From Pascua guehoae (lineage: Eukaryota > Basidiomycota > Tremellomycetes > Trichosporonales > Trichosporonaceae): DNA of 64,000 nt. Of this stretch, positions 4,640 to 26,239 are shown in pieces. Below the pieces are notes generated by a model. The model was not told the origin of the DNA and made no database searches. It saw nothing but the letters and a program-made list of their open reading frames with translations. Location of the stretch: the NCBI GenBank assembly GCA_001600415.1, contig BCJX01000020.1, forward strand, positions 466,945-530,944, written 5' to 3'. The translations under genes were made by a program, and so were the position numbers. Every line of letters starts with the position of its first letter. The stretch's first letter is position 1.

Positions 4640-5190
4640 TGTCACGAGCCGAACGGTGGAGGCTTGGGAACCTAACACAAACCCACCACCGTGACTCCGT
4701 CTCAACCTGGAAGACGGCATCGGACTCACGGAGTTGACGACCTAAAGGAAGGCATCGGGGCCAGGGGATTGCTGCGACACGCACGCGGAGGGGACGCGGA
4801 GAGACGGAAGGATGGAGCAGAGACGGAGGTGGCGCCGCGGAGGTGTCGGAGAGGGCAAATGCCGAGGCAACTGGTTGTCGAGACTAGACTTGTAGTTGCA
4901 TGGCTTGGAGATACAAACTACGGATGGCGCTGAACTAAGTACCCTAGCGAGCGTACGAGCAGGAGCTGCACGGGGGATACGGATTTAGGCCTAGTCTACA
5001 AGCGTGGCACCCTGGGTCGGCGATAGAGCCTCTAGTAGTAGCGCCGACATGCACGGGCGACAGTACGGCGTGTGTGCCTCACGAGGCATCATGAAGCGTG
5101 TACTGTGTGCTGTCAAGACAACGTGCATGATTTCTTGTCGCTTGTTGTCTCGAGTGGCAAACCAAACTGTGCAGGTGGAGGTCGTGACGT
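4640..5190 (-). repeat. LTR B of element B, left part (split by element A)
   Basis: Starts TGTCACGAG. Its other part, 22386-22455, ends TCGTGACA, giving 8-bp perfect terminal inverted repeats (TGTCACGA/TCGTGACA). The two parts are contiguous in the related LTR at 58631-59249 (reverse orientation), which shows the unbroken site. Full length without the insert is about 617 bp. It is the 3' LTR of minus-strand element B; the run of C following 22455 is the polypurine tract in that orientation. Confidence 0.85.
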
Positions 5191-5799
5191 TGTGGTGGTA
5201 ATTTCTCGCCCTCTCTGCTTATCTCCTAGCGTCGAAGTTTAGGTTCACTAGGCTATCCATAGTAATAACTAGAAGCGACATCGGAGTTCATGTCGTTCAT
5301 GCATCATTCCCTTGGAGCACAACTCTAGTCGGCGAGTACAGCGCACGGAGCCCGCTAGTGGCTAGCGGCAAGAGACGAGGGGTCCTACGTGAGTCGGCAA
5401 CCGCCACGTATGGAGCCCGTTGTTGGTCAACGGTGAGGAGCAAGGAGCCCGACTCTGGTCGGCTAGTATGACGCATGGAGCCCGCTGTCGGCTAGCGGCT
5501 AGGGGCGAGGGGCCTGACTTACTCGACGCCGAAGTGCAACAGAGACAGGCACGCAGCCTCTAGCGCTGCCCACGGGGCCCGCCGTCGATCTGTATCGGGG
5601 TGCATAGGGGTCCGAGATCAGCCAGCGAAAGCCGCCTGTGGGGCCCGTCCCCTATCGGCGCTAAAGGTAAAGGGGCCCAACATAGCCAGTGTTGGGGCCC
5701 TGTGGAGATTAATAGGTAAGCCAGGTAAGACAGCGGGTAAGAGGCCGAGTACCTCCCAGAGCAACAGCCCAGTCCTGTCGGTAGGGAAAAACTGCCACA
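5191..5799 (+). repeat. 5' LTR of RE-A
   Basis: 609 bp, TGTGGTGG...CTGCCACA. The last ~285 bp differ from the 3' LTR at about six positions, all transitions and mostly at CpG sites. The central part carries fewer hairpin minisatellite units than the 3' LTR, so the arrays changed copy number independently after insertion. Confidence 0.9.
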
Positions 5800-6092: not shown

Positions 6093-9000
6093 ATGTCATC
6101 CGACTCTATTAAGGACAACGCTGTTCGCGACGCGCCGACTTCTGCACCTCTGGAGAAGGACGCTCTGCCGCATTGGTTTATGGTTGCAACTGCCATCGGG
6201 CAGGATAAGGTAAGTGGTGAGAAGGGGAAAGAGAAGGAGAGGGGTGAGGATGAGAAAGAGAAAGGGGCTGAAGGTGAAGGTCGGCAGGGGTCCGACATGG
6301 GTCATGATGGGATGACCCGGAATGAATCCAAGCTGGGGATTTATCACGAAGAGGGAGGAAATAAAAACATCCCCCTAAAAACGGGTTTAGAGGAGCAGCC
6401 GCCCCTAAGCCGCGGTGCGCATGCTGCAGTACATGATACTGGCGCAACCGCAAAAGATGGGAAAAGGCTTGAGCCTCCTGTAGAAGACCGGTCCCACATA
6501 TATGTGGTGTCTTCCAGTGGCCCTCCCCACCCCAGCCAGAGGGCCGCTGTACAGTCAGACCAGGAGGGAGAGTGGTACTTGAGTGAAGGACCGTGACCTG
6601 CCGAACGCGGTGCAGCAGCCGCTCAGTGGGACCAGTACAGGGAACCAGAAGTATTGGCGGAGTCCAAGAGTAGTGGGTCTCGGAACCTCCGAAAAGACGG
6701 GTCACCATATGGGACCTGGGAAGAGAGACTCGCCACTGAGCGAAGGGAGAAGAAGGAGAAGGATGCTCTGGACCCATGGTGGGGGCCGCGGAGACTATAC
6801 TACGAGAGTCGCCTACCAACCAGGGGAGTTGACTTTGCGAAGATTGATGCCCTGGCAAAAGGGGATGGAGAATCGAGCAGCAGTGGTGAAGAGGACGTGA
6901 TAAAAAGGGGTCATAAGGGCAGCATGCCTAATCCTGGGGGTCACAAGGCGCAAATGTGGGATTGTGACGGAGCCACGCTATCTGACCACTTAAAGTGGTT
7001 CAATGACGCTGCTGAATATGCCTGCTTGAGTGATGGGGAGAAGTTTGATCAGTACCCAAAATACGTGGTGATTGATAAGAGAAACAAGTTCCAGGCCGTG
7101 GTGCGAGCAGCCAAGGTGTACACATGGGCACAACTGGAAAAGGAGCTGAAGGATCGTTATTACGACCCGACGAAGGCTCCGGCCACGGCTAAAGACTTGG
7201 AAGAAATGGCCACGCGAAAGGCTAGTAAGGAGGTACGGGATTATCTGGACATCATCAAATACACGGAGGAGTTTGCACTGGTGGCGGAGCAGTACAGTCG
7301 GAGCCCGGAGTATGCCGCTAAAGTGGTGGACCGGTGCTACTATTGTAGTTTCTCGGAGTCCGTGATGAGATCCCTTCTAATGGCTCATGAAAGCCAATGG
7401 AGGATGGAACATCAATGGAATGGGAAGAGTGTGCCCCGGTGGGAATGGATGGAAAAGGCACTGAGAGAGCATTACTCCCCTGAGAATGAGATTGCTCAGT
7501 TGCGTGCGGATAGTGAAGGGGTGAGACAGAACCGAAGGCTGATGGCCCAACGGGGAGAGGAGAGCCTCGCCCGCTACCGTGCCAAGGTGGAAGGAGAACG
7601 GTTTCTGCAGATTGGAGACGGGGGTAGAATCTTGTTGACTGACGGTGTGAACGGCTCTCGGCGGGGTGGAAAGGCCATAGGGGTAGATGAGCTGGTTAAG
7701 AGCATGACTAAATTGAAGATAGAGCATGCATCGGCCAGCAGGCCTAAACACAAAGAAGTAGAGCAACTTTATCATGCACGATGGTTGGAGCTCAATCGAG
7801 CTCTACCAGAGGCAGGCAAAGCTTGGCCGGAATCGCTCAAGGACAAGACAATGGATGCCCATCGGGCCCATGAGGCTAAAACGGCGGCTTGGGAGGCGTA
7901 TGCAAGAGGGGGACCTGGCAGTCAAGCTTATGTGGAAGCTTATACCATGGCTGCCATGGTGTCGCCGGAGGCAGCACGAGATTTAGTAGTGCCTGATGTT
8001 AGTAAGGCATATCCCTACTCTAAGAATCCGTTGCCAGGGCAGAGTTTCAGGCCGCCTCGGGCTCCGATGGCTAATCGACCCTGGGTCCCACGGGGCGTGC
8101 CCCCAATCATGCCGACACGTCTCGCTCCTCCGGTGGCGAGAGGTTTCGGAATGACAGTACGACCACCGTTTTTGAAGCCTGCTTTGAAGGCCGAGTCGAT
8201 GGAGTTGGAGGCACTCTCGGTGGAGGAGCCTGCTCTTGGTCCTCAAGTCGCTGGGGTTAACCCACGACAGTACATGTGTTTCTGGTGTAGCGAGTTGGAC
8301 CATTTCCTCATGGATTGTCCTTGGTTGAAGGCATCGATCAAGGTGGGGTATGTAAAGTATGGCCGAGCCATGTGGGGACAATGAAGTAATCCGATAGTGT
8401 GGGCTCATGATGGGACCTTAGTGAAGTGGCATCCCGTTCATGGGTCGCGAAAGGCAACTGTAGATGAACAGGTAGAGAAGGCTCGACGGGCTGCTGTAGC
8501 CGAGGCTGCGAACGCTGAGTATTATCAAGACGTGCATGCTCAAGGATGGGATGACACAGATGATGAAGATTACCAAGGGGCTGAAGGCCGAGGAGAACCC
8601 GCAGGTTGTTACCTGGATGAGGAATCGGACCCCGAAGGTGAGGATTGGATGGACGAGGACGAGTACTCTGAGTTTGAAGGAGCAGCAGTGCTGGTCGAGC
8701 TGGAAGGGGAGGTCGAGGACGTGGAAATAGGGTCTGCTAGGGCTTACCTTGAAGAGCTACTGTTGGATCTGGCCGAAGAAGCCAAGCCCAGTAGGGCAGA
8801 GCGCCAGCACGCGTTGCAGGCATTCCTGGTGGAAAGGATTAGGGCCAGTGAAGTCGAAATGGCAGCAGCGGAGAAGAGAGCGACTGGGATTAGCGGGAAT
8901 AGACTAAGCCCTTACGAACAGGGGTCTAAAAAGGTGACCTTTGTTGCTCCACCTCCGACTGTAAAAGCAGGAAATGGGGGTGGGGACCGGCGAGGCCCAG

Positions 9001-10676
9001 TCACACAGGGGGCGGACCCCAAGTTGGGTGGTCGTCAGATGTTAACGAGTGACGGGAGGCCGGGATTGGTTAGCCTCACAGTGCCAGGCAAAGCTGGTAC
9101 AAAAGTGACCCAGAGCCGTGGTGGCACGGAGGCACGTAAGGAAGCCAAGCCTCAGCCTCTTAATGTAAAGGAAACGAAGAAAGGGGATGAAAAGGTAGAC
9201 CATGGTCGGGGAAAGTACTCCACAGTCAACAACAGCTTGACTCAAGGAGTAGATCGAGAGAAGGTGTGTGAGCGTTTGCTCCAGTCGTCGGCTGGGCATG
9301 GGATGGTGTTGACTCTGGCGGAACTGGTGACTCTGTCTCCCTATTTTGCGCGCTTCCTGGCTCAATCTTTAAAAAGGACAGCGGAACAGACCGCCCATTG
9401 TGGGGAAAATGCCGAAGCAGCTGCGGTGGGACTCACGGGGTGTAGCCAAAGTCTAGAGTGGGACGAAGAGGAAGTAGAAGGAGAAGTACGATCATACTGG
9501 GAGCCGCCGCTGTTAGAGGTAGGGGAAGTGGAAGAAAAAGGAGAGTGAGAAAAAGGGACGTTCGTGCCTGCCGTCTACTCTAGCAAAGGAAGGATGGGGA
9601 TGAGTAGGTTGCCACTAGCAGTGCGGACTGCACTGTTGCCATGTAGGTTGAATGGGGTGGAATGTCGGGCGATGGTTGATGATGGATCCATGCTCAACCT
9701 CGTACCCCGAGGAGTGTTTGAGCAGCTCCGAGTCGGACTCTGCAGCGACATTCGCTTCCGTGTGTCGGGTATTCATGATACGGGTGGAGTCGGGCTGGCG
9801 GGCCACTTCACAGCCGAAGTAGAATTTGGTGGTTTGACTACACGTCATTTCTTTTGGGTAAACGACGCGATGAAGGAGGAGAAAATCTACTTGGGTATGC
9901 CATTCATCCTAGCGAATCGAGTAGAGTTCTTCTGGCATGGCCCCAACTGAATCATGCATCAACAGACTATGCAAGGGACCTCAGAGTATGCTATGTTCCC
10001 GAGCGAGGGACCTGAAATCACAAGGTACAGCAAATCACCCAGCTTGCAAGCGGAGCGGGGGCGATATGCGTCGGATTTAGCCAACTACGAGGCCGAGCTA
10101 GAGTACCTTGGGGCCGCTAGTTACGTCAGTGAGGCTGCCAGCTGTGACTACTCCGAAGAGGAAGAGGAGGAGTATGAAGTGGCAGGATTGGATGTTGTGG
10201 AGGTAGAATTTGAGGATGCACCGGAGGAAGGGGAAGAAACACCGCGACCGCGCCCGGAGCCCGGACGGGGGACAGAAAGTGATGAGGAAGAAGCATTATG
10301 GCGTGCGGCTGAAAAGCTCGGGGAAGAGCTCATGTCCCAAGCCTCCGCCCAGGTGTGGGATGGGCAGGATATTAATCGAGTCCAGCTAGAGGACATGACC
10401 AGCAGGGGATGTCAAGTATTGGAAATTGATATGGGGGCTGAGGAAGCCACCTATGAGGTAGCGGGAGCTTATAAGCCGGTAGCGAAGAAGCAACACCCCG
10501 TGGCTACCACTATGCCTGAGGAGGCAAAGCCCATTCTGAAAGAGCCCGAGGACATGTGGGCGGACCTGCCAGAAGTAAGCATTGACTACACTAGGCGGGA
10601 GGACATACCAGGGGGTGTTCGCCTCACTAAAGAGCGGCAGGAAGGCCTGTTTGACAGCGATTATGAGGGTTTTTGA
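6093..10676 (+). pseudogene. RE-A Gag-protease polyprotein (in-frame TGA codons)
   Basis: One reading phase from ATG 6093 (MSSDSIKDNAV) to TGA 10674-10676, about 1,527 codons, broken by TGA at 6594, 8382, 9546 and 9948. Each fits a former CGA (Arg). Parts in order: Glu/Lys-rich N-terminus (6093-6700); capsid-like region (about 6940-7850, homologous to the Gag of element D); a CCHC zinc knuckle, CFWCSELDHFLMDC (C-x2-C-x4-H-x4-C, about 8277-8318); an acidic spacer (8397-9548); an aspartic protease-like segment (9564-9950) with AMVDDGSMLNLVP, where DDGS replaces the usual D-S/T-G; then a very acidic tail (9954-10676). The frame ends on a slippery heptamer that leads into pol. Gag packages the element RNA in virus-like particles and the protease processes the polyprotein. 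Protease identity rests on position and one motif. Confidence 0.75.
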
Positions 10677-10716
10677 CTGAGGAGGAAAAGTGTATGATGG
10701 TCGTCGTCCTCCTCAG
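10667..10716 (+). promoter_or_regulatory. -1 ribosomal frameshift signal (GGGTTTT + hairpin)
   Basis: At the end of the Gag-protease frame the codons read gag ggt ttt tga. The heptamer GGGTTTT (10667-10673) is in the canonical X-XXY-YYZ phase and the stop follows at once. Slipping back one base opens the pol frame (ttt ttg act gag gag). A perfect 10-bp stem follows: CTGAGGAGGA (10677-10686) pairs with TCCTCCTCAG (10707-10716), with a 20-nt loop. The spacer is only 3 nt, shorter than usual, so some of the lower stem may have to open. A further 5-bp loop-downstream pairing (10701-10705 with 10745-10749) is possible but weak. The structure was read by eye, not computed. Confidence 0.7.
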
Positions 10717-13687
10717 AAATGAGACGGCATTGGCATGGATGGAAGACGAGAAGGGTGGGTTCCTAGAAGAGTACATACCACCGCACAAAATACCGGTGGT
10801 TGAACATGAGCCCTGGCGCGATCGGAATCTCTGTTTGCCTATAACAACATGAGCAAAAGTAATAGCCTTCCTAAAAGAAAAGTTAAGGAATGGACTTTAT
10901 GAGCGTTCACAGTCAAGCTACAGATCGGGCTACTTCGCAGTGGAAAAGAAGGACGGGAGAATCAGAATTGTTCATGACTTGCAGAAACTTAACTCCATCA
11001 CTATACGAGATGCGGGGGTGCTGCCTTTGATGGATGAGATGACAGAAAACTTGGCGGGTAGTCAGATATACACCAGCCTAGACGCCTTTGCAGGGTATGA
11101 CCAGTTGGCCTTGCACCAGGACTCTAGAGACTTGACCACGTTCGAGAGTCCTATTGGTACCCTTAGGCTGCGGCGCATCCCTCAAGGGTGGACCAATGCG
11201 GTGGCGGCCTACCAAAGGGTGATGACATTCATATTTGCGGAACTAATACCCGAGGAGGTGTGTGTCTACGTCGACGACGTTACCTTGAAGGGGTCCAAAT
11301 CGCTATTCCAAGACGCTACAGGGGGTCCGGGGAAACTTCCCGGTAAGGACATACGGAAATTCGTTCACAAACATGCTATGGGCCTAAACCGCGTATTGCA
11401 TCGCATGAAAAGGTTCGGTGGAACGTTTTCAGGGGCAAAGATTCATTTAGGGGTGCCAGAGGTTAAAATGGTCGGGTACATGATCTCTGCAAAGGGTCGC
11501 CGTCTCACTAAAAGCGCGATAGCAAAGCTATTGAAGTGGCCTCCTTGTGCTACTCCCACCGATGCGCGCAAGTTCTTGGGTCTGGTGGGGCCCGGTCGCA
11601 GTTGGGTTAAAGGATATGGGCAGATTGCGCGGCCCATTGTCCAGTTAACCAGGCAACTACTTGCCAAAGAATTCAAGTGGACAGCAGTCCATCAAAGGGC
11701 TATGGATGAGATCAAGCGGCGCGTAGCCGCGAGTGACTGGATTACGCCAATAGACTATGATCGTGCAGATGAATACCTGCCCATAGTCGCTATTGATGCC
11801 AATACTACGGGATGCGGAGTGGAGTTAGCTCAGATGGGTCTGGACGGCAAGAGACACCCAGCGAGGTTCTACAGTCTGTACTATAACGCTACTCAACAAG
11901 GATATAGCCAGCCTAAGCTCGAGCTGTTTGGTATTTACGTGGGACTGCGCGCGGTACGTTACCACATCCACAATACTCAGTTCATTCTGGAATCCGACTG
12001 TATATCCATTAAACAGATGATAAACTCCCCTTTTCTGCCCAACGGCCCTGAAGCCAGGTGGTGTTGGTACATTAAGCTTCACGACTTCATCTTTAAGCAC
12101 GTCCCTGGAGAGCGTCACCGGGTTCCGGATAGCTTGTCGCGGCGTCCGAGAGCGGAAGATGATAGTGATGATACGGACCCCGAGGAGTGGCTGGACCAAA
12201 ACTGTGGTGCTGGGGACGCCGAGACTGTGAACCCTGACGTTGATGATGTTCCGTTCCAGGAGGCCTTGTATGAGAACAATGAGGACTGGTTGGCTATAGG
12301 ACAATTCTTGGAAGGAAAAGGATGGCCTGAGCGCCTGTTGCGCCCAAGGGTCCGGAAACTCAGGGCTTTGGCCAAATATTGCCACCTTGAACAAGGCCGT
12401 ATATGGAGGCGCAAGGGATACTGCCTACCTACAGAGGTTGTCGTGGATAAGGCGCGTCAAAATGAAATCCTTAGGATGAGCCATGAAGAAGCGGGTCATT
12501 ACGGTGGAAAGAGTATGTACCTGAAAGTCACTGAACGGTTCTATTGGCGAGGGCTGAGCGAAGATTGTAGGCAGTGGCGCAAGTCATGCCCCGACTGTCA
12601 AGCGCGAGACTATAGGTTCTATGAGAACCCGTGAATGAGCATACATATACCAACCATATTTGGGAAGGTCAACATCGACTGTGTCACGATGGGGGCAGAT
12701 AATAGGGAAGAAGCCGGTGGTACTAAATACATAGTACTGGCTCGGGATGACCTGACGGGCTGGGTAGAAGGTAGAGTCGTGCCAGACTTGAAAGCCGAGA
12801 CGATAGCAAGATTCTTCTTTGAGGACGTAATTACACGATACGGGCTCATAGGACAAGTCAGTATGGACCAGGGATCGGAGTTCAGAGGCGAGTTTGAGAG
12901 CCTCCTCCGTAGTTGGGGAATTCACTACATCTGAACCTCCCCTTATCACCCGCAAGGGAACGGAGCGATTGAACGAGGCAATGGGCCAGTAAAGGAACTA
13001 TTGTTCAAGCTGGCTCGCACGCGGACTCCAGATTGGCGAAGGTTGTTGCCGCTGGTTTTATGGGCAGATCGTACCACATCCAAACGGACAACTGGATACA
13101 CCCCTCACTTCCTACTGTATGGGATGGAAAGCGTACTGCCCATAGATGCCAAGTTTGAGACTTACATGACCACCCATTGGCTGGATGGCATGACCACGGC
13201 ACAGCTGTTAGAGGCGCGCCTGAATCAGATAGAGAGGAAGCCAGAAGATGTTGCTCAGGCGGCCACTCTTTCGCGAAAGGCGAGGCAAGACGGTATTCGG
13301 AAACACAATGAGGACTTCAAGCGGCAACAGAAAGACCGGGTGTTTAGAAAGAATGACTTGGTCCTGGTTCGCAATTCTAGACAGGACCAATCTCACCAAG
13401 CAAAGCGTGAGGATCGATATCTGGGCCCATATAGGATCTTGACCTTCCACCAGAAAGGGGCAGTAAGCCTGGCAGAGTTGGATGGAACACCAATCCTAGA
13501 CAAAGGATTGGCACATGTGGGCCATAACAGATTGCGCAAATATTACTCACAGAAGGTAATGACTGCCGACGTGGAACAAGGGCGGAGCCCGGAGAGAGAA
13601 GTGATTGACATGCAGGGCCCGGTAAGGTCGGTAGCCAGACCTACAATTGGTCTGGGGGATTCTAGCCAGTTGCCAATGCATGATTAA
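10677..13687 (+). pseudogene. RE-A Pol: reverse transcriptase, RNase H, integrase
   Basis: Read in the -1 phase relative to Gag; stops at TGA 10850, 12632 and 12932 all fit former CGA codons, and the natural end is TAA 13685. RT: KKDGRIRIVHDLQKLNSIT, LDAFAGYDQLAL, and the catalytic box CVYVDDVTLKG (about 11258-11290). RNase H: DANTTGCGVEL...ESDCISIKQM (about 11790-12020). Integrase: HHCC zinc-binding domain ending CPDCQ (about 12480-12600), then the catalytic triad Asp in VNIDCVTM, Asp in SMDQGSEF and Glu in GAIERGN, and a GPY-type module (YLGPYRIL, about 13420). No chromodomain is visible. YVDD rather than FLDD, and the ISPYHPQGNG-type integrase, recall the basidiomycete marY1-like gypsy group. 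Enzymes convert element RNA into DNA and insert it into the genome. Confidence 0.88.
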
Positions 13688-13817
13688 GCTTTAGTCCATT
13701 ACCAATAACTTGGTTGTGGAGCCCGAGGTCGGCTCCATAAACGTCTGGGGGAGAAGGAAGTGAAGGATAAAAGGAAAGAGAGACGGATGGGCAAGAGAGA
13801 AAAACTCACGACGCAAG

Positions 13818-14872
13818 ATGATCACAACCAGTGAATGGCCAAACCAGAACCCGGACATGTCGGCCTTGTCGATCCAGTCGCCGCCAGTTACCCCATCCCA
13901 GTCGCAGACGGGAGAGCAGGGCCATGCAAGTACCACGTTGAACGAGGACACGACGTTCCAGCTCATGGGTGAAGTCACCTCTGCGGTAGTGGCCTCGGAC
14001 TCCATCCACATGAACATGGACATGGACACGGAGGTCAGTGAGGGTATGGACTAGGAGTGTAGAAATCCAAAACTCACCTCTATGGGCAGGCCACCCCTTC
14101 CGTCATGTCGCCCCCAAGCCTCGCAAGCGTAGTGGAAGCGCTGTCGCCCCAAATGGACTATGGTCCCAACGACCATGTGCCGATTGTCGAGGTGGACCAG
14201 TTCTTTACAAAGAAAACGGATGCCACGGTGACTTGCGCATTTTGTGGTTCGACCCATGACTCTGCTAGGTTCCCATCTTCATCCAACCGGTACCTGTGCG
14301 TAATCGTATGCTGGATCGAGGTCCAGTGGGGGCAGGATAACTTTCACTACTCTGTTGACCCCTACGGGCCTTTCTGGTTCAACACGGGCAACATCCGCGA
14401 GCCCATCTACCGCTTCGAGGGAGAGCTGCCCATCATTGCATGGCTGCGGTTTGAGCGTCACATGTGAGCCAACTGGTACGAATGTCTGGACAACAAGCCC
14501 AACTATCTCATCAGGTACGGGACCCAGCTCTTCACCGTGATGGGTTCCCGAGACTTCCAGTATGTGCGTGTACTCCTCAAGAAGGGAGAATCATCCCACA
14601 ACGCAGTGGCGACCAGGACGCTGGAGGACCAGAAGAGGATGGCGATGACCTTGCTCCTCTCGGGGTGGAACATCACTCACCATACCCATCGGATCCCGCA
14701 TCCCTCGGTGGGCCAAGGGAAGCACACGAAACTTCGTTACGATGAGTGTCCGGCTCGGCCAGTGCCCACGTGGCGCACCGACAATCACGCGGGCCCGACA
14801 TATGGTGGTGCGGGTAGGAGGCAAGGGAAGAATCAAGCCTTTAGGCTGAGTAGGAAGAATGGAGGGTGGTAG
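13818..14872 (+). CDS. cargo gene A1 (sense, one intron, one internal TGA)
   Basis: Starts 130 bp after pol. Exon 1 is 13818-14033 (72 codons, Ser/Thr/Met-rich); the intron is 14034-14089 (gtcagt...gggcag, 56 bp); exon 2 is 14090-14872. The join is phase 0 and gives 332 residues with one TGA at 14465, again a likely CGA. The second exon contains CAFCGSTHDSARF with a later CVIVC, a possible small metal site (C-x2-C-x17-C-x3-C), then an aromatic region (DPYGPFWFNTGNI) and a basic, Gly-rich C-terminus. I do not recognise the family. It is transcribed in the same direction as the element, so its intron would be lost from any spliced genomic RNA; its retention implies that unspliced RNA was copied, or that it uses its own promoter. 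Not an envelope gene by any feature I can see. Confidence 0.55.
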
Positions 14873-15077
14873 ACGGCAGGAGGTCGAAAAGAGAGAATGT
14901 ACAGTACAGTACCATGACAGGGAAATGAATTGGGTGCGGAAACAAATGGGCCGGAGTCCGCGAGCGTAATGCTATTTGGGAAAACGGAGTGCGGGGGAGA
15001 AACCTAATTACATTTCGGGTATTGCTACTAACTTGACAACTGGGTATAAGAGAGACTATGGATACAATATGAATGGA

Positions 15078-16583
15078 TTAGGGGTTGGCCGCTGCGGCTG
15101 CTGCTGCAATTAGAGCCGCCTGACGAGCGTCCTTGCATTGACGACGAGCAGTGATGCGAGGACAGACTTTCTCAAGCCAGCACTTCACCTTCTCCAAGCC
15201 ACCATCGTACTTGCTGTGAGGGGCAGCATCGGAGTCGTTGTCACTGCTGTCCCCGTCGCTACTATCATACTTCTCGAAAGGCTTAGTGACAGGCAAAAAC
15301 CAGGAACCAAGACGCAGAGAGAGGATATCGTTGGCGTCTGGCCAAAATGGGCAACCACTGTCGTAACCGAGGAGGACTTTGTCCTTGCTGTCGCTGTCGT
15401 CTGCGGAGGGCTCGGCGACAAGGGCCGGACAGTACGAAAAGGGAGGGGCACCAAACTGGTACATGGTGTGCGAGGTCTGACCAGGAAGGAGGAATGCAGC
15501 AGGTGCGCCCGGGATCCAAGGCGGGTAGCGGGCCACTTTGGCCCAGACGAGGAGGGGTTCCGGAAGAAAAGGGGGAGGGATGGGATATGTCTCCCAATGA
15601 AGAATGGAGACGCGGACAGTGGGGAGGGCTGCCTGCGCGAAATCGAGGTGCTTTAACACAAACTCGCAGAACTTGGCCCGATCTGCGGAGTTGTCAGGTG
15701 GTTGGCGCCGAGTGACAAAGTGTGACAACTGAGCAGAAATCTCGGCGATTACTGCGCGCTTGTGCTGCAGAAAGGTAGGGGTGAACGAGCATGCTCCGGG
15801 GGGACACTGTCCACAAGCGTTAGGGAGGAGCTCGGCGGAAAAGGGGCAGCAGTACTGCAAAAGTTTGCACCACGCGCAACGGCGACGACCGTAGATAATC
15901 TCCCAATCGCGAGAGGGGAAACGTTCCTGGAAGGGTCAGTGGACACCAAAGGCAGGCAAGAAAAGGGGGGGAGAGGAGCAAGTCAGCTTACCTTGATGTC
16001 GAGAGAGATCTGGGGCGCCGAGAGCGCTTTGTCCTCCTTGACACGTGCAGGGAGCCCCTTGCGTCGGCGGCTGGAACCCGGAGTCAACTTGTCACGGGAC
16101 CCGGAGGCGGAAGGGGTCACCTCCTCTTCCTCGTCATCCTCCTCCTCCTCGTCTACTTCCTCCATGGCAAAATCCTCCTCTTCGTCTTCCTCTTCCTTGT
16201 CCTCTTCTCCATCGTCCTTGACAAGGAATGGGGATTTGGGGTCTGAAAGAATCAGCAGAAGAAGCGGAGGGGAACGGTAGAGGGTCGCAAGAAAGACAGC
16301 TTGACTTACCAATAAAGTCTTTGAGGAACTTGGACCGTTTACGAGAGGGCGAAGCCATCAGATTGGAGACAGCTTTACGGTGGTCGGGATTCATGCGTGT
16401 GATAGTCTGGGCATGGTCAGGGACCCAAAACAGTGAGGTTAGTGTTGGGGAGCACACAACGTACCGCAAGAAGCTTTTTCGACTCTTTGAGTTTGGCCTT
16501 TTTAACATCTGCGCGAGGACTGAGCTGCGAGTGTGTGAAGCCTTCTGCTTCCCCTTGTCCTTCTTGGTCGATTTGGGCGCCAT
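15078..16583 (-). CDS. cargo gene A2: antisense zinc-cluster-like protein, three exons
   Basis: Minus strand, convergent with A1. Exons 16583-16310, 16242-15992 and 15926-15078, with introns 16309-16243 (gtaagt...tttcag) and 15991-15927 (gtaagc...ttccag). Joins are in frame and give 457 residues. Start ATG 16583 (MAPKSTKKDKGKQK, basic). Residues ~100-130 are almost all Glu/Asp. The third exon opens with C192-x2-C195-x6-C202-x10-C213-x2-C216-x4-C221, close to the fungal Zn2Cys6 pattern (last spacing 4 rather than 6-8). Then come a Pro/aromatic region, an acidic Ser-rich stretch and an Ala-rich end. Role unknown; DNA or RNA binding is inference. A possible extra intron in exon 1 (GTACGT...CTAAC...CAG, 58 bp) would break the frame, so I leave it in. 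It sits between pol and the 3' LTR, antisense to the element. Confidence 0.6.
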
Positions 16584-16739
16584 TGTGGAAGAAGTGATGA
16601 AGAAAGGAGGGTGTGTAAAAGAGGAGGAGCGAAATGGACCAGAGGGGAGAAGAAGAGGAGGGGCGAGTGGGAAAGATGGGGGTGGGAGCTTGGTTGGGGG
16701 AGAATGGGATGAAGTAGGGGCGAGTGGGAGAGGGGCTTT

Positions 16740-18180
16740 TAATACGTTGAGGAAACGGGGAGGGAGCGAGAGTGAGCTGTAAGATGGAGTGCGAGTGGGG
16801 TAGGGGGAATAATAGTGGGAAGTGGTGTGATAAGGTGTGAGTGGTGAATGGAGCCCGTGCGAGTTAGGGGCAAGTTGACAAACATAGTGGAGCTGGCCGC
16901 ACGAGGAACAAGGTGGAAAGGGGGTGTGATGAGAGGTGAATGGCGCATGTTGACAAGAGTGGTGGCGCTGGCCGCACGAGGAACAAGGTGGAGAGGGGGC
17001 GTGATGAGGTGTGAATGGCGCGTGTTGACAAGCGTGGTGGAGCTGGCCGTATGAGGAATAAGGCGGAGGGAGGGGGCGTAATGAGGCGTGAATGGCGCGT
17101 GTTGACAAGCGTGGTGGAACTGACCGCATGAGGAATAAGGTGGAGAGGGTGTGATGAGGCGTGAGTGACGAATGGAGCCCGTGCGAAGCTAAGGGAGAAG
17201 CAATAAACATGATGGAACGAGCCGTGCAAGGAATAAAGCGAAGGAGGCATGATGAGGCGTAAGTGATGATTGGAGTCCGTGCGAGGCTAGGGATGGGTTG
17301 ATAAATGTGATGGGACGAGCTGTGCGAGGAATAAAGCAGAGGAGTTGTGATGGGAGGTGTGATGATGGGGTCTGTGTGATGATGGGGTCTGTGTGAGGTT
17401 AAGAAAAAGGGGACGGATAGGGTGGAGCAAGTTGCGAGAAGGACAGGAACGGAGAGCATGGTAGTACAGCGTGCTTGGCAAGTGGGGTCCGTGTGAGACC
17501 AAACTGGGGTGACAAATAAGGTATGAGATAGGCCGCGAGAAGGACAAGAACGGAGAGCATGGTAGTACAGCGTGCATGGCAAGCGGGGTCCGTGTGAGAC
17601 CATACTGGGGTGACAAATAAGGTATGGGATAGGCCGAGAGAAGGACAAGAACAGCGGAGCATGGTAGTAAGGCGTGCATGGCAAGTGGGGTCCGTGTGTG
17701 GCCGAAGTGGAGTGACAAATAAGGTATGGGACAGGTTGCAAGAGGGACAGGAGTGGAGAAGCAGGGGTAGTAGGGCGTGCACGGGAGTTAGGTCTGTGTA
17801 AGATGGTGACAAGTTGGGAAGGCCGAGCTGTAAGAAGGATAGGGGCAGAGAACTTTGGTGAAAGGGTGCACAAGGAACAGGGTCTTGGCGTTACGCATGA
17901 GGTTAGCTGCAAAAAGGGGATGGAAAAGGAGTATAGTGAGGGTGATGCAAGTGTGTGGGACGGAGCCCGTGTGAGACTAGGGTTGGGGGAAGCCAGACCA
18001 TGGATGGACGAGCTGTGGAGGGTAGAGGGTTGAAGGACAAGGGCGAAGCATGAGCAACAAATGGGGTCCAAGTGTAGTTGTATGAACTTCGGGTGGAATG
18101 GAGTTGTTGAATGCTACGGAGTATAGGCCAGGAGTGGGACATGCTGAGAGGCTGAACAAATGCATTGACAACACAAGCGG
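16740..18180. repeat. tandem repeats upstream of A2 (about 75-bp and 102-bp units)
   Basis: From about 16840 to 17200 a unit of about 73-77 bp recurs (the marker agttgaca/tgttgaca at 16873, 16949, 17022 and 17099). From about 17440 to 17790 a unit of about 101-103 bp recurs (gtagta at 17461, 17562, 17664 and 17767). The strand is purine-rich (G-rich on +). The repeats fill the space between cargo genes A2 and A3, i.e. the 5' flank of A2 and the 3' flank of A3. A long minus-strand frame runs through them only because the repeats lack stops. No other gene seen here. Confidence 0.75.
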
Positions 18181-18283
18181 GACGGGGAGCTACAGGATGG
18201 TGGCTATGCTACACTGCGGGACCCGAGGTGCCGGAACCCTGGGCTTTGGAGGCGGCCTCACGACGGGCCTTCTCGTCCTCTTC

Positions 18284-19866
18284 TTAGATGCGTTTTTCCT
18301 CCTTTGCCTCGTCGTAGACGCGCAGCATAAACTTGGCCTCGGAGGCAGACTTGTACTTGCGGGTGTGGCGAGCTGCCTGTGCACGGCTGTCCATGAACTT
18401 CCCATTGGGCTCGGGAGTAGGAGCAGGGAGGTCTGCCACCACAGCATCGTGAGAATAATGGGAGCCTTGAGTAAGGGTCTTGGTGTTACGCATGAGTTCG
18501 AGGGCCAAAGGGAGGCGAAGGTCTGCCTGGACCTTGGGAGAAAGGGAGATAGCCTCCTGGAGTGGAACCAAGGAAGCTTGGTGAGCACGAGGAAGGATGG
18601 ACAGAGGACCGGGGTGGAAAGTGCAGGGGACCTTGCCCTTTTTACAGGGCGTGCACGAGTCTTCCGGGTTCTTGACGTTGCCCCAGCAGGTAATGCCCAA
18701 GTTCCGGCAGTGGGCACAGGCCGCAGTCGGGGGCAGGACAGCATGCATGGGAAATTCCTTAGCCCAATTGACCTATCAGTTAGTAAAAGGGGCGACGGAA
18801 GGATGGGGGGAAAAGGCTCACGTCTGCAAAGCGGACCTGCATCTTGTCGCTCCCGTAAGAGGTCCACGCGCAGAGTTTCTCATGGTCGGCAGGGGACAAA
18901 TCCTCCTGTGTATGGAATGGGTCCTCTTTCTCTTCCTCCTCAGACTCTTCGGACTCCGAAGGGAGCCGAGGGGAAGGGGTACGGAGGTTCACGTCGACCG
19001 GCCGGATGCGGCGTTGGTTGGGGGTGACGACGGTAGGGGCCGGGAACGGGCTGTTGGGCACAACGTCAAAGCGATCAATCCAGGCTAAGAAGGCAGCCGG
19101 GTCAATGGAGTGGAGAAAATGGTTGAAGGCCTAGGAGTTAGAGTGACCGGAATGGTACAGGCAAAAGGTGTGAAGGTTGAGACTTACTCGGTGGCAGGCG
19201 TAGTGCTCTTTTCGGAGTTTGACGTAATGGCAAAGGAGCCAAGCCGCCAGTATCTTGCCTGAGGCTGTGGAATCGGTAGAGGAGCAAGGCCCAAGGACTC
19301 GATCCCAAAGACGGCAAAAAGTCGCGACAGAAGGTCTGGAAGGAACAGATGAAAGAGGGGCGTGGTGAGCAAGGGGAGAGAAGGGAAAGAGTAGGAAAGA
19401 CTCACTCCTCGATGTCATCCTTGCCGTTGTCGGCGAATAGGCCCTGGAAGAGCGGGAAGGAAAGGACCTGTGTCCAGAAAAGACTCCAAGAAACCAGAGC
19501 GGCAGAGCGCACACGCGTAACCGGATGGTAAATGTGAACAAAAGGGTTCTTCACAGGGTCCTGTACAAGCTAGGGGGGGGGAGGGGATTAGTGACTGGAG
19601 AAGGGTGGTGACCGGAGTCCGCTCACCTTGGTCTTGAGATCCTGCACGATTTCCACCAGAGCCTCGACCACGGCATCATCATCTGTGGTTGCCACCGCTT
19701 TAAAGTCGATGCCGCGGAGGGCATCTTCGAGTGGCTTGGTGCGAGCCATGACGGTCTTGAGGTCGGGGGCGGGGTGAGTCGGGAGGATATCCGCCTTGAT
19801 CTGAGTAAGGACCGAGCGATCCGTGTAGCCGTAAATGGTAGAGAGGGAAAGGGGGTTGGCAGCCAT
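18284..19866 (-). CDS. cargo gene A3: antisense Zn2Cys6-like protein, five exons
   Basis: Minus strand. Exons 19866-19627, 19569-19406, 19335-19188, 19130-18822 and 18772-18284. Introns of 57, 70, 57 and 49 bp all have GT-AG ends; the last has ACTAAC before the acceptor. Lengths 240+164+148+309+489 keep one frame and give 449 residues from ATG MAANPLSLSTIYGYTD. The middle is acidic (PSESEESEEEEKED). Exon 5 carries C306-x2-C309-x6-C316-x10-C327-x2-C330-x6-C337 (ACAHCRNLGITC...SCTPCKKGKVPC), which has exact Zn2Cys6 spacing. In transcription factors this cluster is usually N-terminal; here it is two-thirds along the protein. The stop TAA 18284 may be a mutated CAA, since the frame runs on in the same style to TAG 18209. 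Antisense to the element, which lets its introns survive retrotransposition. Target and function unknown. Confidence 0.65.
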
Positions 19867-20339
19867 GGTGATCGAGAAAGCGTGGTTCTGAAGGGAGAGG
19901 CGACTAATGAAAAGGGGGTGAGAAAAGGGGATGGTAGTGGGATGGAATTGAGGAGGGAAGGAGGCAATGGTGGGGTCTGCTTATAAGCCGAAAGGAAAGG
20001 GGTGGGAACAGGTTAGTTGGTAGTGTGATAGAAACGTGGGACGAGTACACGGAAGGGCGAGGGTGACAAACAATGCGTGCATACCGAGAAGCTAGCTTGT
20101 GATGATACTGGAAAGAAAGTGACGGGGCTTGAGAAGCAGGGTGAAGTCAGTGCGAGGGTAGGGTGGAGGTTTCGGGTAGTCGCCTTGGCTCGCGAGCGGG
20201 GGGGGGTGGAGAATGAATCGAGGAGGGCGTGGGTGTGATCGAGGTGGGGTGTAAACCTTGAGAGGGGAGGTGTGATGAGGAGGTGAGAAAGACATGAGTG
20301 AGTGGAAAAGTGTGTGATGGAGGCAAGAAGAGGCGTCGA

Positions 20340-20720
20340 GTGGCTTGAGTGGCGGGGCCTGAGCGAGGATGGGCCGATCTAGCTTGGACCCCGGGGGCAG
20401 ATTGAGCCGAGCGAGGATGGGCCAATCTAGCTTGGACCCCGGGAGCAGATTGAGCTGAGCAAGAATGGGTCGATCTAGCTTGGACCCCGGGAGCAGATTG
20501 AGCTGAGCAAGGATGGGCCGATCTAGCTTGGACCCCGGGAGCAGCTTGAATCAAGCGTGGATGGTCCAATCTAACACGGACACCAGGAACAGATTGACCC
20601 AAGCATGTATAATTCAATCTAGCGCAGACAGCAGAAGTAGAATGGCCTGGACAAGGATTAACTAGTCCAGCACGGACACCTGGAGTGGAATGGCCTGGGT
20701 AGAGGCTGACTCGTCTAAGT
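20340..20720. repeat. 48-bp minisatellite in 3' internal region of RE-A
   Basis: Units containing gatctagcttggaccccgg recur at exactly 48-bp steps (20376, 20424, 20472, 20520) and then degenerate toward 20720, about eight units in all. Inverted, decayed units are present in the A' remnant at 4440-4639, so the array is a feature of the family. No gene here; the minus-strand frame of repeated SAQSAPGVQAR is a by-product. Confidence 0.85.
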
Positions 20721-21092
20721 GAGGTCGTTGGAGGTGGAATGGTTTGGGGGAGTCGGCTTGCCTGTGTGGATCTCGAATAAAGGAGGTGCATGATTGCCGG
20801 GTGAACTGGCATCAGGCGTGACGGGTTTTGTGCGGATTCCGAGGGTAAAAAGTGGACTAGCTACTACTGTTAAGCGGTCAAGTTCGGACTGTGGAGAGTG
20901 AAGGGTGAACTTGTTCGGGGAGGGCTGGTTGAGGAAGAGGGAGGGCGAGGACTGAGTACTGCAGTAACGATGTGCCCAGTAAGTGTAAGGCCTTACTAGG
21001 CCCTGGGGTGCTCGATCCCTCGTAAACGAGAACATTAAGAGGTAAAGAGATCACCAGGGTCGGAGGGCCGACCCACTGGGGCGCTTGTGAAC

Positions 21093-22385
21093 TGTGGTGG
21101 TAATTTCTCGCCCTCTCTGCTTATCTGCTAGCGTCGAAGTTTAGGTTCACTAGGCTATCCATAGTAATAACTAGAAGCGACATCGGAGTTCATGTTGTTC
21201 ATGCATCATTCCCTTGGAGCCCGACTCTAGTCGGCGAGTACAGTGCACGGAGCCCGCTAGTGGCTAGCGGCGAGGGGCGAGGGGTCCGACGTGAGTCGGC
21301 AACCGCCGTGTGCGGAGCCCGCTGTCGATCAGCGGCGAGGATCATGGAGCCCGACTCTAGTCGGCGAGTACAGCNNNNNNNNNNNNNNNNNNNNNNNNNN
21401 NNNNNNNNNNNNNNNNNNNNNNNNNNNNNNNNNNNNNNNNNNNNNNNNNNNNNNNNNNNNNNNNNNNNNNNNNNNNNNNNNNNNNNNNNNNNNNNNNNNN
21501 NNNNNNNNNNNNNNNNNNNNNNNNNNNNNNNNNNNNNNNNNNNNNNNNNNNNNNNNNNNNNNNNNNNNNNNNNNNNNNNNNNNNNNNNNNNNNNNNNNNN
21601 NNNNNNNNNNNNNNNNNNNNNNNNNNNNNNNNNNNNNNNNNNNNNNNNNNNNNNNNNNNNNNNNNNNNNNNNNNNNNNNNNNNNNNNNNNNNNNNNNNNN
21701 NNNNNNNNNNNNNNNNNNNNNNNNNNNNNNNNNNNNNNNNNNNNNNNNNNNNNNNNNNNNNNNNNNNNNNNNNNNNNNNNNNNNNNNNNNNNNNNNNNNN
21801 NNNNNNNNNNNNNNNNNNNNNNNNNNNNNNNNNNNNNNNNNNNNNNNNNTCGGCAACCGCCGCGTGCGGAGCCCGCTGTCGATCAGCGGCGAGGATCATG
21901 GAGCCTGACTCTAGTCGGCGAGTACAGCGCATGGAGCCCGCTATTGGTTAGCGGCGAGGGACGAGGGGTCCGACGTGAGTCGGCAACCGCCGCGTATGGA
22001 GCCCATTGTTGGTCAACGGCGAGGAGCAAGGAGCCCGACTCTGGTCGGCAAGTATGACGCACGGAGCCCGCTGTCGGCTAGCGGCTAGGGGTGAGGGGCC
22101 CGACTTACTCGATGCCGAAGTGCAACAGAGACAGGCACGCAGCCTCTAGCACTGCCCACGGGGCCCGCCGTCGATCTGTATCGGGGTGCATAGGGGTCCG
22201 AGATCGGCCAGCGAAAGCCGCTTGTGGGGCCCGTCCCCTATCGGTGCTAAAGGTAAAGGGGCCCAACATAGCCAGTGTTGGGGCCCTGTGGAGATTAATA
22301 GGTAAGCCAGGTAAGACAGTGGGTAAGAGGCCGAGTACCTCCCAGAGCAACAGCCCAGTCCTGTCGGTAGGGAAAAACTGCCACA
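21093..22385 (+). repeat. 3' LTR of RE-A, with assembly gap 21375-21849
   Basis: TGTGGTGG...CTGCCACA; 1,293 bp including 475 N. The first ~140 bp and last ~285 bp match the 5' LTR, and the extra length is hairpin minisatellite. Distinct stems at matching places after GGAGCC include CCGACT/AGTCGG (21221-21234) and CCGCTG/CAGCGG (21320-21336). Confidence 0.9.
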
Positions 22386-22455
22386 ACGTCACGTGATTGT
22401 CGGTCATGTGATTTCGACACCGCGTAGAAACGACTAAGTCGTCCAGATCGTGACA
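22386..22455 (-). repeat. LTR B of element B, right part
   Basis: Continuation of the LTR broken at 5190 by RE-A; begins with the duplicated acgt and ends TCGTGACA. The following ctgccccccctg is a polypurine tract on the minus strand, marking this as the 3' LTR of element B. Confidence 0.85.
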
Positions 22456-25400
22456 CTGCCCCCCTGACAGAGGGGCCGAAGTCCCGACGGGCCTCGTTTA
22501 TCGATATCGACAGCGTCGACAGGATCGGGCGAGGTAAGTCGTTTCGTTGGATCGGTTTGCCGGGTTTCGTTTGTTCAGTGACGCTTGCGCCGTCGCTTTG
22601 GAGCGGGAACAGGGGGAAAGAAATGCTCCGGGTTGTCCTTGTTGGCCTTGTAGAACTCACGGAATGCTCCCACATTCTTGATCGCGTGGTAGGGTTCCCA
22701 TGAGTCTTCGTAGTCGGGAAAGCCATGCCAATGGATAAGGTACCAATACTTATCCTCCTCGTTCTCTTCATCATGCTGAGAGTCGAGGACCTTGTCGACA
22801 TACCATTCGGGTTCGCCGTCAACATGGATCGGGGGCTCAGGTTCCTGACGCTGGCCGGGCAAGGGCGGTTTGGCTGGGCGGAACAACTGCACGTGGAAGA
22901 CAGAGTGCAGCCGTTGCAGCTCGGGAGGAAGATCGATCACCCACACCAATGGTGACTTGGTCGGGGCGAGGATCTTGTAGGGGCCGAGGGCGACGCGGTC
23001 AAGCTTGAACAGTGGTCGGAGTGACGTGATGTTCTTGCNCTTGAGGTAGACGAGGTCGCCCTCCTTGTAGGGTGGAGCTGGTTTAACCTTNCGGTTATAG
23101 AACTCCGAGTGACGTGCTTGCGCTGCCTTGATGTTCTCCTTGAGGGTCTCGCGGAGAGTTGCAATCTCATCGAGGCGGCGTTGCGCAGCCGGAACGTTGG
23201 CCAGACGGACCGGGGTCGTGGGGTCCACGGGGTTGAAACCGTGGAGGGTGAAGAACGGGGAGACCTTGGTTGACGATTGGATAGTGTTATTGTAGGCAAA
23301 CGCGGCAATCGGCAAGAGGCACTTCCAGTCCGTGTACGTCGCGTTGACGTGGTGCCGCAGATAGTGGATGATAATCTGAATGAGACGCTCAGTTTGCCCA
23401 TCGGTCTGCGGGTGCCAGGCCGTGGACAAGGCGGACTTGGTGCCGAGTGCATCAAAGAAGGCACGGGTGTAACGTGACGCATTGAGGGGGCCCCGGTCGG
23501 AGACGATATCCAGAGGCATGCCATAGACAGAGAAGACATGCTTGATCGTCAGTTCGACCAGGTCTTCTGCGGTGAAGCCCTTTTCCTTGAACGGGGCGAA
23601 AACTGCAAACTTGGTAAGGCGACAGATCCAGAACATGATTGAATCGTTGCCGTCTTCGTCGGGTGGCAGTTTNGTCAGTGCGTCCATGGCAAGAGAACTC
23701 ATGGGACGCAAAGGAATGGGGAGNGGTTGCAGAGGTCCAAATTGCCGCTGGCGCCAAGGCTTGTTCCANTTACAGGTGTGACAGCCGGCGCAATAGGCAT
23801 CGATGAACTTGCGCATCGCGGGGAAGTAGAAGTAACGGCTGACGGCGGCAAGAGTTTTTGCACTACCGGGGTGGCCAGCCGTGGGAACGTTATGAGCCTG
23901 GTAGACGATGTCNAGTTTAAGTTGATGGTCGTCAGGCATGAACAGGAGGTTGGAAAAGAAGAGAAGCTCGTCGTGCACTGAGAAAAACTCGAGATCATCG
24001 TCGGCCAGGTCGTCCGGAGGAGACTCCTCAGGGTGCTGCAGAGCATGGATCAGCTGCTGACAGCGTTCGTCNTTGTCTTGGGCTCTGCGCAGCCGCTCGA
24101 CAATGTCGGAATGAGGAGGGTAGTNGTCAGGGTTGTCTTCGTCGGCGTCTTCCTGTTCAGGGGGTACAGGGGGATCGTCGACGTTCTCCGGTTCCGACTC
24201 GACCTCGGGGATGGGTTCAAGGTCAAGCTCTGGTTCCTGGGGGATGCTCGCGGCCTCTTTTCTGGTGCCGCTTCGGGTGCGAGCCATGGTAGCGACAGCA
24301 GGGGGAGGGGTTTCGGCTCGATCGGGGTCAAAGAACAACCGGGGTTCAGCTTCCTTTGCTTTCGTGCCAGGCTGAAGGTCATGCCGGCGCGAGAGAGCAT
24401 CGGGCTTCACCATCTGCAAACCCTTCTTCCACTTGATGGAGAAGTCAAAGGGCATGAGCAGTTCGATGTACTGGTTTTGACGCCGATTCCATGATCTCTC
24501 GGTGAGGAAGTACTCAAGGTTGTGGTGGTTGGTGAACACTTGAGTATCGTGAGCGTACGCAAGGTAGTGGCGCCACTGCTTGAAGGCTTCGATGATGGCA
24601 AGCATCTCCTTGTCGTGCGTCTTGTAGTTGAGCTGAGAGGGAGTGAGCTTTCGGGAAAAGAATGCAATGGGAAGGAGGTGGCCGTCGTCGTCGCGCTGGG
24701 AAAGGACAGCAGCGATGGCGAAGTCAGATGCATCAGCTTCGATGAACAGCTGGCGCAGGGGGTCGAACATCCTCAACACTGGGGCGACAGTGAAACAGTG
24801 TTTGAGGAAGTCAAAGGCTTTCTGCTCTTCTTCGGTCCAATGCCAAGCGCGCCCTTGCTGCGTGAGGCGGTGCAGCGAGAGTATGATCTTAGCGTAGTTG
24901 TGGATGAACCATCGATAGAAGTTGCAGAAGCCAAGGAAGGAGCGGACGTGTCGGATCGTGGTTGGAACGGGCCAGTCGAGGATGGCAGCGACTTTTGTCG
25001 GGCGTCATGCCAAGCTCGCCATGGCCCACGATAAATCCGAGGAAGCGTGTCCGNTCGGTGAAGAACTCGCACTTCTCAGCCTTTGCGTAGAGACAGTGCG
25101 TGCGGAGCTGCTCGAGGACCTCTTTGGTGTCTTTGATGTTGTCCTCGCGCNAGTCGGAGTGGACCAGGATGTCGTCTAGGTATCCGACGGTACACCTGTC
25201 CAGGAGCTCACTGCCGATAGCCTCATTGATGAGGTTCTGGAACGAGGCAGGAGCGTTGGTCAGTCCAAATGGCATGACGAGGTACTCGAATTGCCCTCTG
25301 GACGTGACGAAGGCGGTCTTCCACTCGTCGTCTGGTCAGATGCGTACAAGGTAGTACGCTGAACGCAGGTCGATCTTGGTGAAGACCTTGCCGGCACGGA

Positions 25401-26239
25401 GTCTGTCAAGGACGTCGTCCATGCGAGGGATGGGGTATTGCCATTTGATGATGTGCTCATTCATCTGGTGATAGTGGATGATGGGCCGAACGCCGACATC
25501 GTCATCCTTCTTGCTGACAAAGAAGAGGGGAGCCGTGGTAGGGGACTTGGAGGGACGGATGTACCCCTTGGCAAGCAATTGATCGAAGTAGTCTTCAGCA
25601 ATTGCTGCCTTGCGGCTGGCGAAACGGTAAGCTTTGCGCTTACCCGGGAACTTGCTCTCGTCCTTGAGGTCGATCGCATGGTCGTAGTTGGTGTGTGCCG
25701 GAAGGCGATTGCTGTTGGTCTTCGAAAACATGTCGAGGTAGTCGTGGAACTCGACGGGCATGACCTTGGCAATCTCGTCGCGATCCGGCACAAAGGTGGA
25801 GAGTGGGTCATCGTAGTCATCGGGATCGGGGTCGGTCAACTCGGCGCTAGCGCACTCGAGGTCCAGACCAGAATCGAGAGACGTGACTAGACCCGTGGAG
25901 GAGTAGGCGAACGGTTGGGCAGGAACAGCATCATCCTCATGTTGGAGCAGAAGGAAGGAGGCTGCTGAATGTGGGTACCACATCAGCATCTCAACCTCCT
26001 CTGGTTCCTCAGAGTTGAGTTTGCTCCCGTCGTCGGCTAACTCCGACATGGCGGCAGCACGTGGCGTGGGTTCCATAGTCGTGGCCACGGCCGCAAAAGC
26101 GGGCGGAGGGGAAACGAGCGATAGCAGAGGAGCAATGCCATCACTCAGGAAGCACGGGAGTAGTTGTTGCATAAAGGCTTCAACTACTTGCTTCGGGACA
26201 GGGGTATTGGGCTTGTCACACTTCGTGAACTTGACTTTG
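22456..26239 (-). pseudogene. RE-B Pol: protease remnant, RT, RNase H, integrase, chromodomain (minus)
   Basis: Coding runs from 26239 down to about 22577. Upstream of RT the frame (VPKQVVEAFMQQLLP) is cut at 26239 by LTR C. RT: EDYFDQLLAKGYIRPSKSP, FTKIDLRSAYYLVRI, then TGA (25336-25338, a likely CGA), DEWKTAF, and the catalytic [11 protein letters not shown]. One extra base in a run of A near 25000 shifts the frame after GMTPDK. RNase H: EADASDFAIAAVLSQ...NHHNLEYF. Integrase: Asp in MDAL, Asp in SDRGPLNAS, Glu in GQTERLIQ, then LGPYKIL. A chromodomain (EWYVDKVLDSQHDEE...YLIHWHGFPDYEDSWEP) ends the protein, typical of chromoviruses that target methylated-H3K9 chromatin. About a dozen single N bases lie between 23039 and 25150, so some breaks may be sequencing errors. 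Confidence 0.88.

Follow-up and report, generated by a model that had tools for sequence, protein, structure and literature searches.

Evidence for a conserved set of sense and antisense accessory genes in large Ty3/gypsy elements of the fungus Pascua guehoae

The window analysed here, a stretch of 64,000 nucleotides at the end of contig C20 (BCJX01000020.1) of the basidiomycete Pascua guehoae, contains a gypsy element of 17,195 bp, called RE-A (window positions 5191-22385). Between its integrase and its 3' long terminal repeat (LTR) there are three extra genes, A1 in the sense orientation and A2 and A3 in antisense. Our main conclusion, to which we assign a probability of about 75%, is that RE-A is one of a clade of large Ty3/gypsy elements in which these genes form a conserved accessory set, with A2 and A3 expressed from antisense mRNAs that we infer from the gene structure. 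The three genes lie inside the transposed unit, have homologues in three diverged lineages of cargo, and change in the manner of protein-coding genes. They are more than chance reading frames because of the codon-position pattern of their substitutions, the ratio of nonsynonymous to synonymous divergence (dN/dS) among copies in the same genome, and intron positions which the lineages have in common. An earlier, sequence-only reading of the window had proposed a 17-kb gypsy element with three additional intron-containing genes; the exact length, a target-site duplication (TSD) and homologues in three lineages bear this out.

RE-A has the features of the Ty3/gypsy group: paired LTRs, a 4-bp TSD (ACGT), and gag followed by reverse transcriptase (RT), RNase H and integrase as identified by Pfam profiles. 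The sequences on its two sides (22386-25593 and 4637-5190, minus strand) come from a different gypsy element. The C4 relative has an empty site, with the two parts joined without interruption, and the C3 relative aligns through the same place. The TSD and the gapless flanks in the C4 relative lead to the conclusion that RE-A with all its extra genes was inserted as one unit.

Copies and lineages in the genome

The whole genome (33.6 Mb in 28 contigs) was searched in six frames with A3, A2, A1 and pol, which gave 20, 18 and 18 exon-level matches for the three genes and 69 matches for pol. Judged place by place, every match to A1, A2 or A3 lies within element sequence or next to it. Counted by hand there are 18 distinct pol loci at least 60% identical to the RE-A pol, three of which consist of short or broken pieces only. 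A1 is found in sense at most 6 kb downstream of pol at 11 of the 18 loci, A2 within approximately 8 kb at 9 and A3 nearby at 7, and every A2 and A3 at these loci is antisense. The genes are therefore present in other copies; their absence from these would, according to the sequence-only reading, have spoken against it. Four more loci carry extra genes but no uninterrupted adjacent clade pol (C4:558-567k, C3:2752-2760k, C12:470-477k and C16:36-41k); at three of them A1 is, as expected, opposite to A2 and A3, and the fourth has A3 only.

The copies fall into three lineages. Lineage A comprises the window copy, C10:15-20k and the C12 and C16 copies; lineage B comprises eight copies for which cargo DNA was available, together with a relative at C4:584-587k that has A1 only; and lineage C is C4:558-567k. 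Homologues of A1, A2 and A3 occur in the same order in all three. The identity between lineage B and RE-A is 65-70% for full pol copies, 38-40% for A1, 38-41% for A2 and 26-31% for A3. The possibility that the cargo had been joined to a different pol at C4:558-567k and C3:2752-2760k was ruled out, as a chromodomain-type gypsy element with its own LTR has inserted there; lineage C is therefore left without an assigned pol.

The RE-A of the window is a damaged member of this family, with damage in both A1 and A3, and the case therefore rests on the other copies. Its A3 is 25 residues shorter than that of the C16 copy, and an in-frame TGA disrupts its A1. Copies are often found within approximately 100 kb of a contig end (C3, C6, C10, C16, C20 and C26), those on C4 and C12 being internal, which suggests a subtelomeric or otherwise repeat-rich setting.

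Gene structure, introns and antisense orientation

A3 encodes 449 amino acids in five exons separated by four GT-AG introns of 57, 70, 57 and 49 nt, and all its joins are in frame. In the window A2 has three exons with both joins in frame. Its first exon is perhaps two exons in lineage A, since the C12 copy is open only when one more intron is removed; that reading runs one base off the frame of the window copy. The A1 join also keeps frame. In lineage B most copies of A1 have a GTGAGT donor, with the in-frame acceptor, and hence the splice model, being provisional. The earlier claim of in-frame exon joins with short GT-AG introns consequently stands for all three genes, with reservations for the TGA in the window A1, the first exon of A2 and A1 of lineage B.

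Every lineage B copy that covers an intron of A2 or A3 has it, and insertions and deletions (indels) whose length is not a multiple of three are located in introns in lineages A and B. Introns 2, 3 and 4 of A3 and the last intron of A2 have the same place and phase in both lineages; intron 1 of A3 was not seen in the lineage B copies. This conservation is what is expected for old introns protected by the antisense orientation. The antisense mRNAs of A2 and A3 would start inside RE-A, upstream of 16582 and 19866, and then be spliced; in the window copy TATA-like boxes are located upstream of both genes. The sense genomic RNA has only the complement of these introns, which is not spliced, and so they could survive retrotransposition. 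The proposal that antisense placement lets introns ride along hence explains A2 and A3. It is not the whole story, because A1 and its putative intron are in sense. A1 might be made from the sense RNA through partial splicing, or from a promoter of its own.

Selection on A1, A2 and A3

Eight lineage B copies were aligned on the antisense strand; one of them, B_C4a, covers only the end of A3, and an insertion was excised from B_C10a. Compared to one reference copy the substitutions at codon positions 1, 2 and 3 number 221, 191 and 454 in A3 and 203, 150 and 425 in A2, against 219, 209 and 209 in the spacer. The five introns gave nominal p-values of 0.02 to 0.74; since p-values of this kind count related copies as if they were independent, they are indicative only.

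Single-copy changes in six lineage B copies are biased towards C-to-T at CpG (167 over 565 sites, compared to 46-62 over 524-765 in the remaining contexts), the pattern that cytosine methylation would leave. As the copies decay mainly in this way, and third positions might be rich in CpG, the CpG-prone columns were removed from the count. The rates for positions 1, 2 and 3 are then 0.034, 0.037 and 0.099 in A3 and 0.032, 0.030 and 0.097 in A2, compared to 0.088 in introns and 0.085 in the spacer. Third positions thus change at close to the intron and spacer rate and positions 1 and 2 at approximately 0.4 of it, a pattern which is unchanged without B_C10a. The persistence of the third-position excess in CpG-free columns rules out that it is mere CpG decay, and the slower change of positions 1 and 2 compared to position 3, introns and spacer leads us to conclude that the A2 and A3 proteins are under selection.

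The dN/dS values do not go against the sequence-only reading either, for which a ratio near 1 would have been the other adverse outcome. For A2 they are 0.13-0.50 in 28 lineage B pairs, and for A3 0.22-0.63 in the 21 pairs with at least 400 codons and 0.17-0.84 in the seven B_C4a pairs of 87-88 codons. Pairs with the deepest copy, B_C3b, gave 0.13-0.16 for A2 and 0.22-0.29 for A3 (seven pairs each, one A3 pair being short). The integrase end served as a control, with values of 0.09-0.16 in six pairs with B_C3b and of 0.11-0.20 in six pairs with the C4 relative; for the seventh copy, B_C3a, in which another element lies at this end, they are 0.67 and 0.85. For A1 exon 2 the seven pairs with the C4 relative gave 0.12-0.15 and the seven with B_C3b 0.25-0.35, and the short exon 1 (40-43 codons) gave 0.09-0.37. 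In lineage A the ratio is 0.35 for A3 against C16, and 0.22 and 0.16 for A2 against C10 and C12.

The cysteine clusters

The consensus spacing of Zn2Cys6 clusters is CX2CX6CX5-12CX2CX6-8C. A3 has the exact spacing CX2CX6CX10CX2CX6C in lineages A, B and C, in agreement with this consensus; over ten aligned rows four of the cysteines never vary and the other two are found in nine. The alignment excludes an eleventh piece (L028, which comes from the frameshifted B_C10b), whose first cysteine pair lies outside the open frame. A2 of the window reads C-x2-C-x6-C-x10-C-x2-C-x4-C. Its cysteines are present in every covering row (8/8, 9/9, 9/9 and then 10/10 three times) with gaps of 2, 6, 8 or 10, 2, and 3-5, so that the last loop is shorter than that of A3 and departs from the consensus. 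The profile PF00172 does not reach its cut-off: A3 of lineage A scores 15.2 against 21 bits, A2 has no match, and with the rows of either gene from lineages B and C there was none at E<=1. The claim of zinc clusters is thereby narrowed to a match of spacing, exact for A3 and a close variant for A2.

The cysteine modules of A2 and A3 align in register (one hhalign comparison, E 7.3e-4, probability 26%), and for that reason the two genes are probably paralogues. Against the PDB profiles the A3 profile had a single match at E<=1, the zinc-cluster protein Leu3 (E 0.74). As to the two-helix pseudo-symmetric zinc fold of the Zn2Cys6 group, a low-confidence AlphaFold model has short helices at both CX2C motifs, and two Foldseek searches gave no fold match. 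A3, A2 and an alignment of A2 had no match in a protein database of approximately 5.8 billion entries; this is a weak null, as the fungal coverage of the database was unchecked, and the search needs shared 5-residue words and similar length, so that single-exon pieces of A3 would be filtered out. From their spacing the clusters of A2 and A3 may bind zinc and DNA. A1, with its conserved C-x2-C-x3-H, is likely to be a zinc-binding accessory protein of the replication cycle.

Weighing the explanations

A number of observations weigh against the main conclusion. A nearby match is absent for A1 at 7, for A2 at 9 and for A3 at 11 of the 18 pol loci, where nesting, truncation and masking were unchecked for each locus. 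In deep pairs dS exceeds the intron divergence, and in several young pairs dN is not below it, which means that dN/dS by itself exaggerates the constraint. A fairer measure is given by the rates without CpG, at approximately 2.5 to 3 fold. Several copies are frameshifted or have stops. A3 has frame-breaking exon indels in B_C10b, B_C10a, B_C26 and B_C3b; such indels are also found in 5 of 7 copies compared to the reference for the last exon of A2, mostly towards the exon end. These indels show the decay of single copies. With alignment A6 the match to Leu3 was not obtained again, and Pfam, NCBIfam, PDB profiles, AlphaFold (mean pLDDT, the model's own confidence score, 56 and 58) and Foldseek gave no functional assignment. 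The same TATA scan of the lineage B copies found none, which limits the TATA argument to the window copy.

As to function, we tentatively favour nuclear autoregulation, although at less than an even chance. A2 and A3 would be nucleic-acid-binding regulators using their related six-cysteine modules to set the transcription or chromatin state of the element itself, a role which can be likened to that of accessory proteins of complex retroviruses or of the nuclear gene23 product of maize Grande. A fuller version, which we regard as doubtful in all its parts taken together, has a set like that of a complex retrovirus: paralogous zinc-cluster proteins A2 and A3 from spliced antisense mRNAs would bind the control regions of the element and govern its expression or its escape from silencing by CpG methylation, and a spliced sense A1 would serve replication. 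Ranked next after autoregulation, and also rather doubtful, is that A2 and A3 act in the particle or the pre-integration complex (RNA chaperoning, nuclear import or targeting) and not in transcription. The basic termini noted by eye fit such a role (a lysine-rich start of A2 in lineage A, and in lineage B an RGG-rich start of A2 and PKRQK at the end of A3), but a separate antisense transcription unit is an odd route to a particle component, and no homology to any such protein was found.

The main product of the antisense region could instead be an RNA which base-pairs with the genomic RNA and supplies small-RNA silencing, the reading frames being secondary. A2 and A3 do overlap the 3' part of the genomic RNA, and PMC7264820 holds a proposal of such a role for plant antisense reading frames; protein-level constraint, conserved cysteines and shared intron positions are unneeded for a role of the RNA only, and we find this explanation improbable. 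An origin of A2 and A3 from a second element, inserted in reverse into an ancestor of the clade and then domesticated, is unlikely. The two genes are adjacent, co-oriented and probably paralogous, which fits one inserted unit or a later duplication, but neither a transposase nor a free copy appeared in the genome searches with A3 and A2; terminal repeats were not specially sought. That the genes are host genes captured by chance and now decaying is disfavoured by the results and very improbable. The window copy is damaged, and ordinary fungal introns have the size of those in A1-A3, both of which would suit a capture. Against it, three lineages carry the genes with constraint on codon positions 1 and 2, and none of the A1, A2 and A3 matches in the six-frame search lies outside element sequence.

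Features and surroundings of RE-A

Table 1. Coordinates of features of RE-A in the window
Feature	Position	Strand	Remarks
Left TSD, ACGT	5187..5190		Empty site in C4 relative
5' LTR, TGTG...CACA	5191..5799	+	
gag-like reading frame	6654..8384	+	PF03732, 27.5 bits (cut-off 24.1)
pol: RT, RNase H, integrase zinc-binding domain	10940..12634	+	PF00078, PF17917/PF17919, PF17921 above cut-off
End of integrase reading frame	13001..13687	+	Open reading frame; DNA match to lineage B pol as far as 13442
A1 exon 1	13818..14033	+	PDxSxLxIxSP-form peptide common to lineages A, B, C
A1 putative intron	14034..14089	+	GTCAGT...GGGCAG, 56 nt, GT-AG
A1 exon 2	14090..14872	+	Conserved C-x2-C-x3-H; broken by TGA 14465-14467
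A2 last exon	15078..15926	-	Cysteine cluster ~15789-15878
A2 middle exon	15992..16242	-	
A2 first exon	16310..16582	-	As open in window; perhaps two exons in lineage A
Degenerate tandem repeats	16842..17803		Units ~75 and ~101 nt, between A2 and A3
A3 exon 5	18284..18772	-	CX2CX6CX10CX2CX6C at ~18623-18718
A3 exon 4	18822..19130	-	
A3 exon 3	19188..19335	-	
A3 exon 2	19406..19569	-	
A3 exon 1	19627..19866	-	ATG at 19866
3' LTR	21093..22385	+	65-bp tandem repeats; masked stretch 21375-21849
Right TSD, ACGT	22386..22389		

The two LTRs (Table 1) are 92-95% identical over their aligned parts. Their unequal length is explained by arrays of 65-bp repeats which are found in this LTR family (window 3030-3994, 21215-22105 and 5313-5520). 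Further tandem repeats, with units of approximately 75, 101 and 48 nt, lie at 16842-17803 and 20311-20694 in the spacers around A2 and A3. A lineage B remnant at 40570-44650 has an LTR-like stretch and a gag region, with approximately 85% identity to the C10 copy over 42880-44650. The gypsy element into which RE-A inserted has a pol end that looks chromodomain-like by eye, and in the copies on C4 and C3 the same kind of element directly precedes A1; its near-identical position in two cargo lineages is a hint of an insertion-site preference.

Comparison with known systems

The usual picture of an LTR element has gag and pol and nothing more. In the fungal clade described here three further genes are maintained by selection, two of them antisense with several exons, which also shows how a retroelement replicating through RNA can keep intron-bearing genes. 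The old question of what antisense accessory reading frames do can now be put to the test in a fungus whose small genome has many copies.

In the fungal Zn2Cys6 (GAL4-type) factors described by PF00172 the cluster is usually N-terminal. The cysteine spacing of A3 is like theirs and a two-zinc cluster is presumed, but the A3 cluster is in the last exon, the profile match is below cut-off in lineage A and missing in B and C, and the spacing of A2 departs.

There is a close likeness to the plant gypsy elements with antisense open reading frames (aORFs), namely maize Grande with gene23, rice RIRE2 and Silene Retand (PMC11963269 and PMC7264820). Like RE-A these are large gypsy elements with a long region between pol and the 3' LTR, often with tandem repeats (Retand too), and their antisense protein genes are kept in most copies with a nuclear or regulatory role proposed. 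According to the same sources gene23 has its own promoter and a nuclear product. The aORF position is found in RE-A and, always antisense, at the 9 (A2) and 7 (A3) of 18 clade pol loci. RE-A differs in having two antisense genes plus one sense gene. Most Retand proteins have the TRP28 domain (PF04195), to which A2 and A3 have no match at E<=1, and the text of PMC11963269 contains neither the word intron nor the word zinc, unlike the features of A2 and A3 described here.

The review PMC7264820 covers Grande, RIRE2, Retand and PvRetro13 as well as Boty from a fungus, and urges attention to antisense and spliced transcripts. Boty of Botrytis is, like RE-A, a fungal LTR element with an antisense gene, brtn, between pol and the 3' LTR. 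The gene brtn (Zhao et al., 2011) is taken here as cited in PMC7264820, PMC8365987, PMC4227169 and PMC5987419; compared by description only, Boty has one extra gene named and a chromodomain in gag-pol (PMC4227169). Boty thus already provides a case of a gypsy element of a fungus with an antisense gene, which restricts the novelty claimed by the sequence-only reading. New, in that we have not found it described, is a set of several antisense intron-bearing genes and a sense gene kept across lineages: a search of the literature, mostly of titles and abstracts and with subscription papers mostly outside it, found no LTR element of a fungus that has a zinc-cluster cargo or several antisense genes with splicing.

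The bdelloid LTR elements with ORF3s resemble RE-A in having extra non-env reading frames after pol. Two of the types of ORF3 are of enzyme origin and, according to PMC5408684, there is no significant departure from neutrality, unlike in A1-A3. Antisense retroviral genes such as HBZ of human T-cell leukaemia virus type 1 (HTLV-1) (PMC11963269) code for a nuclear regulator in antisense within a retroelement, as is proposed for A2 and A3; we draw a functional analogy and claim no homology. With what may be regulatory genes of its own, RE-A resembles a complex retrovirus.

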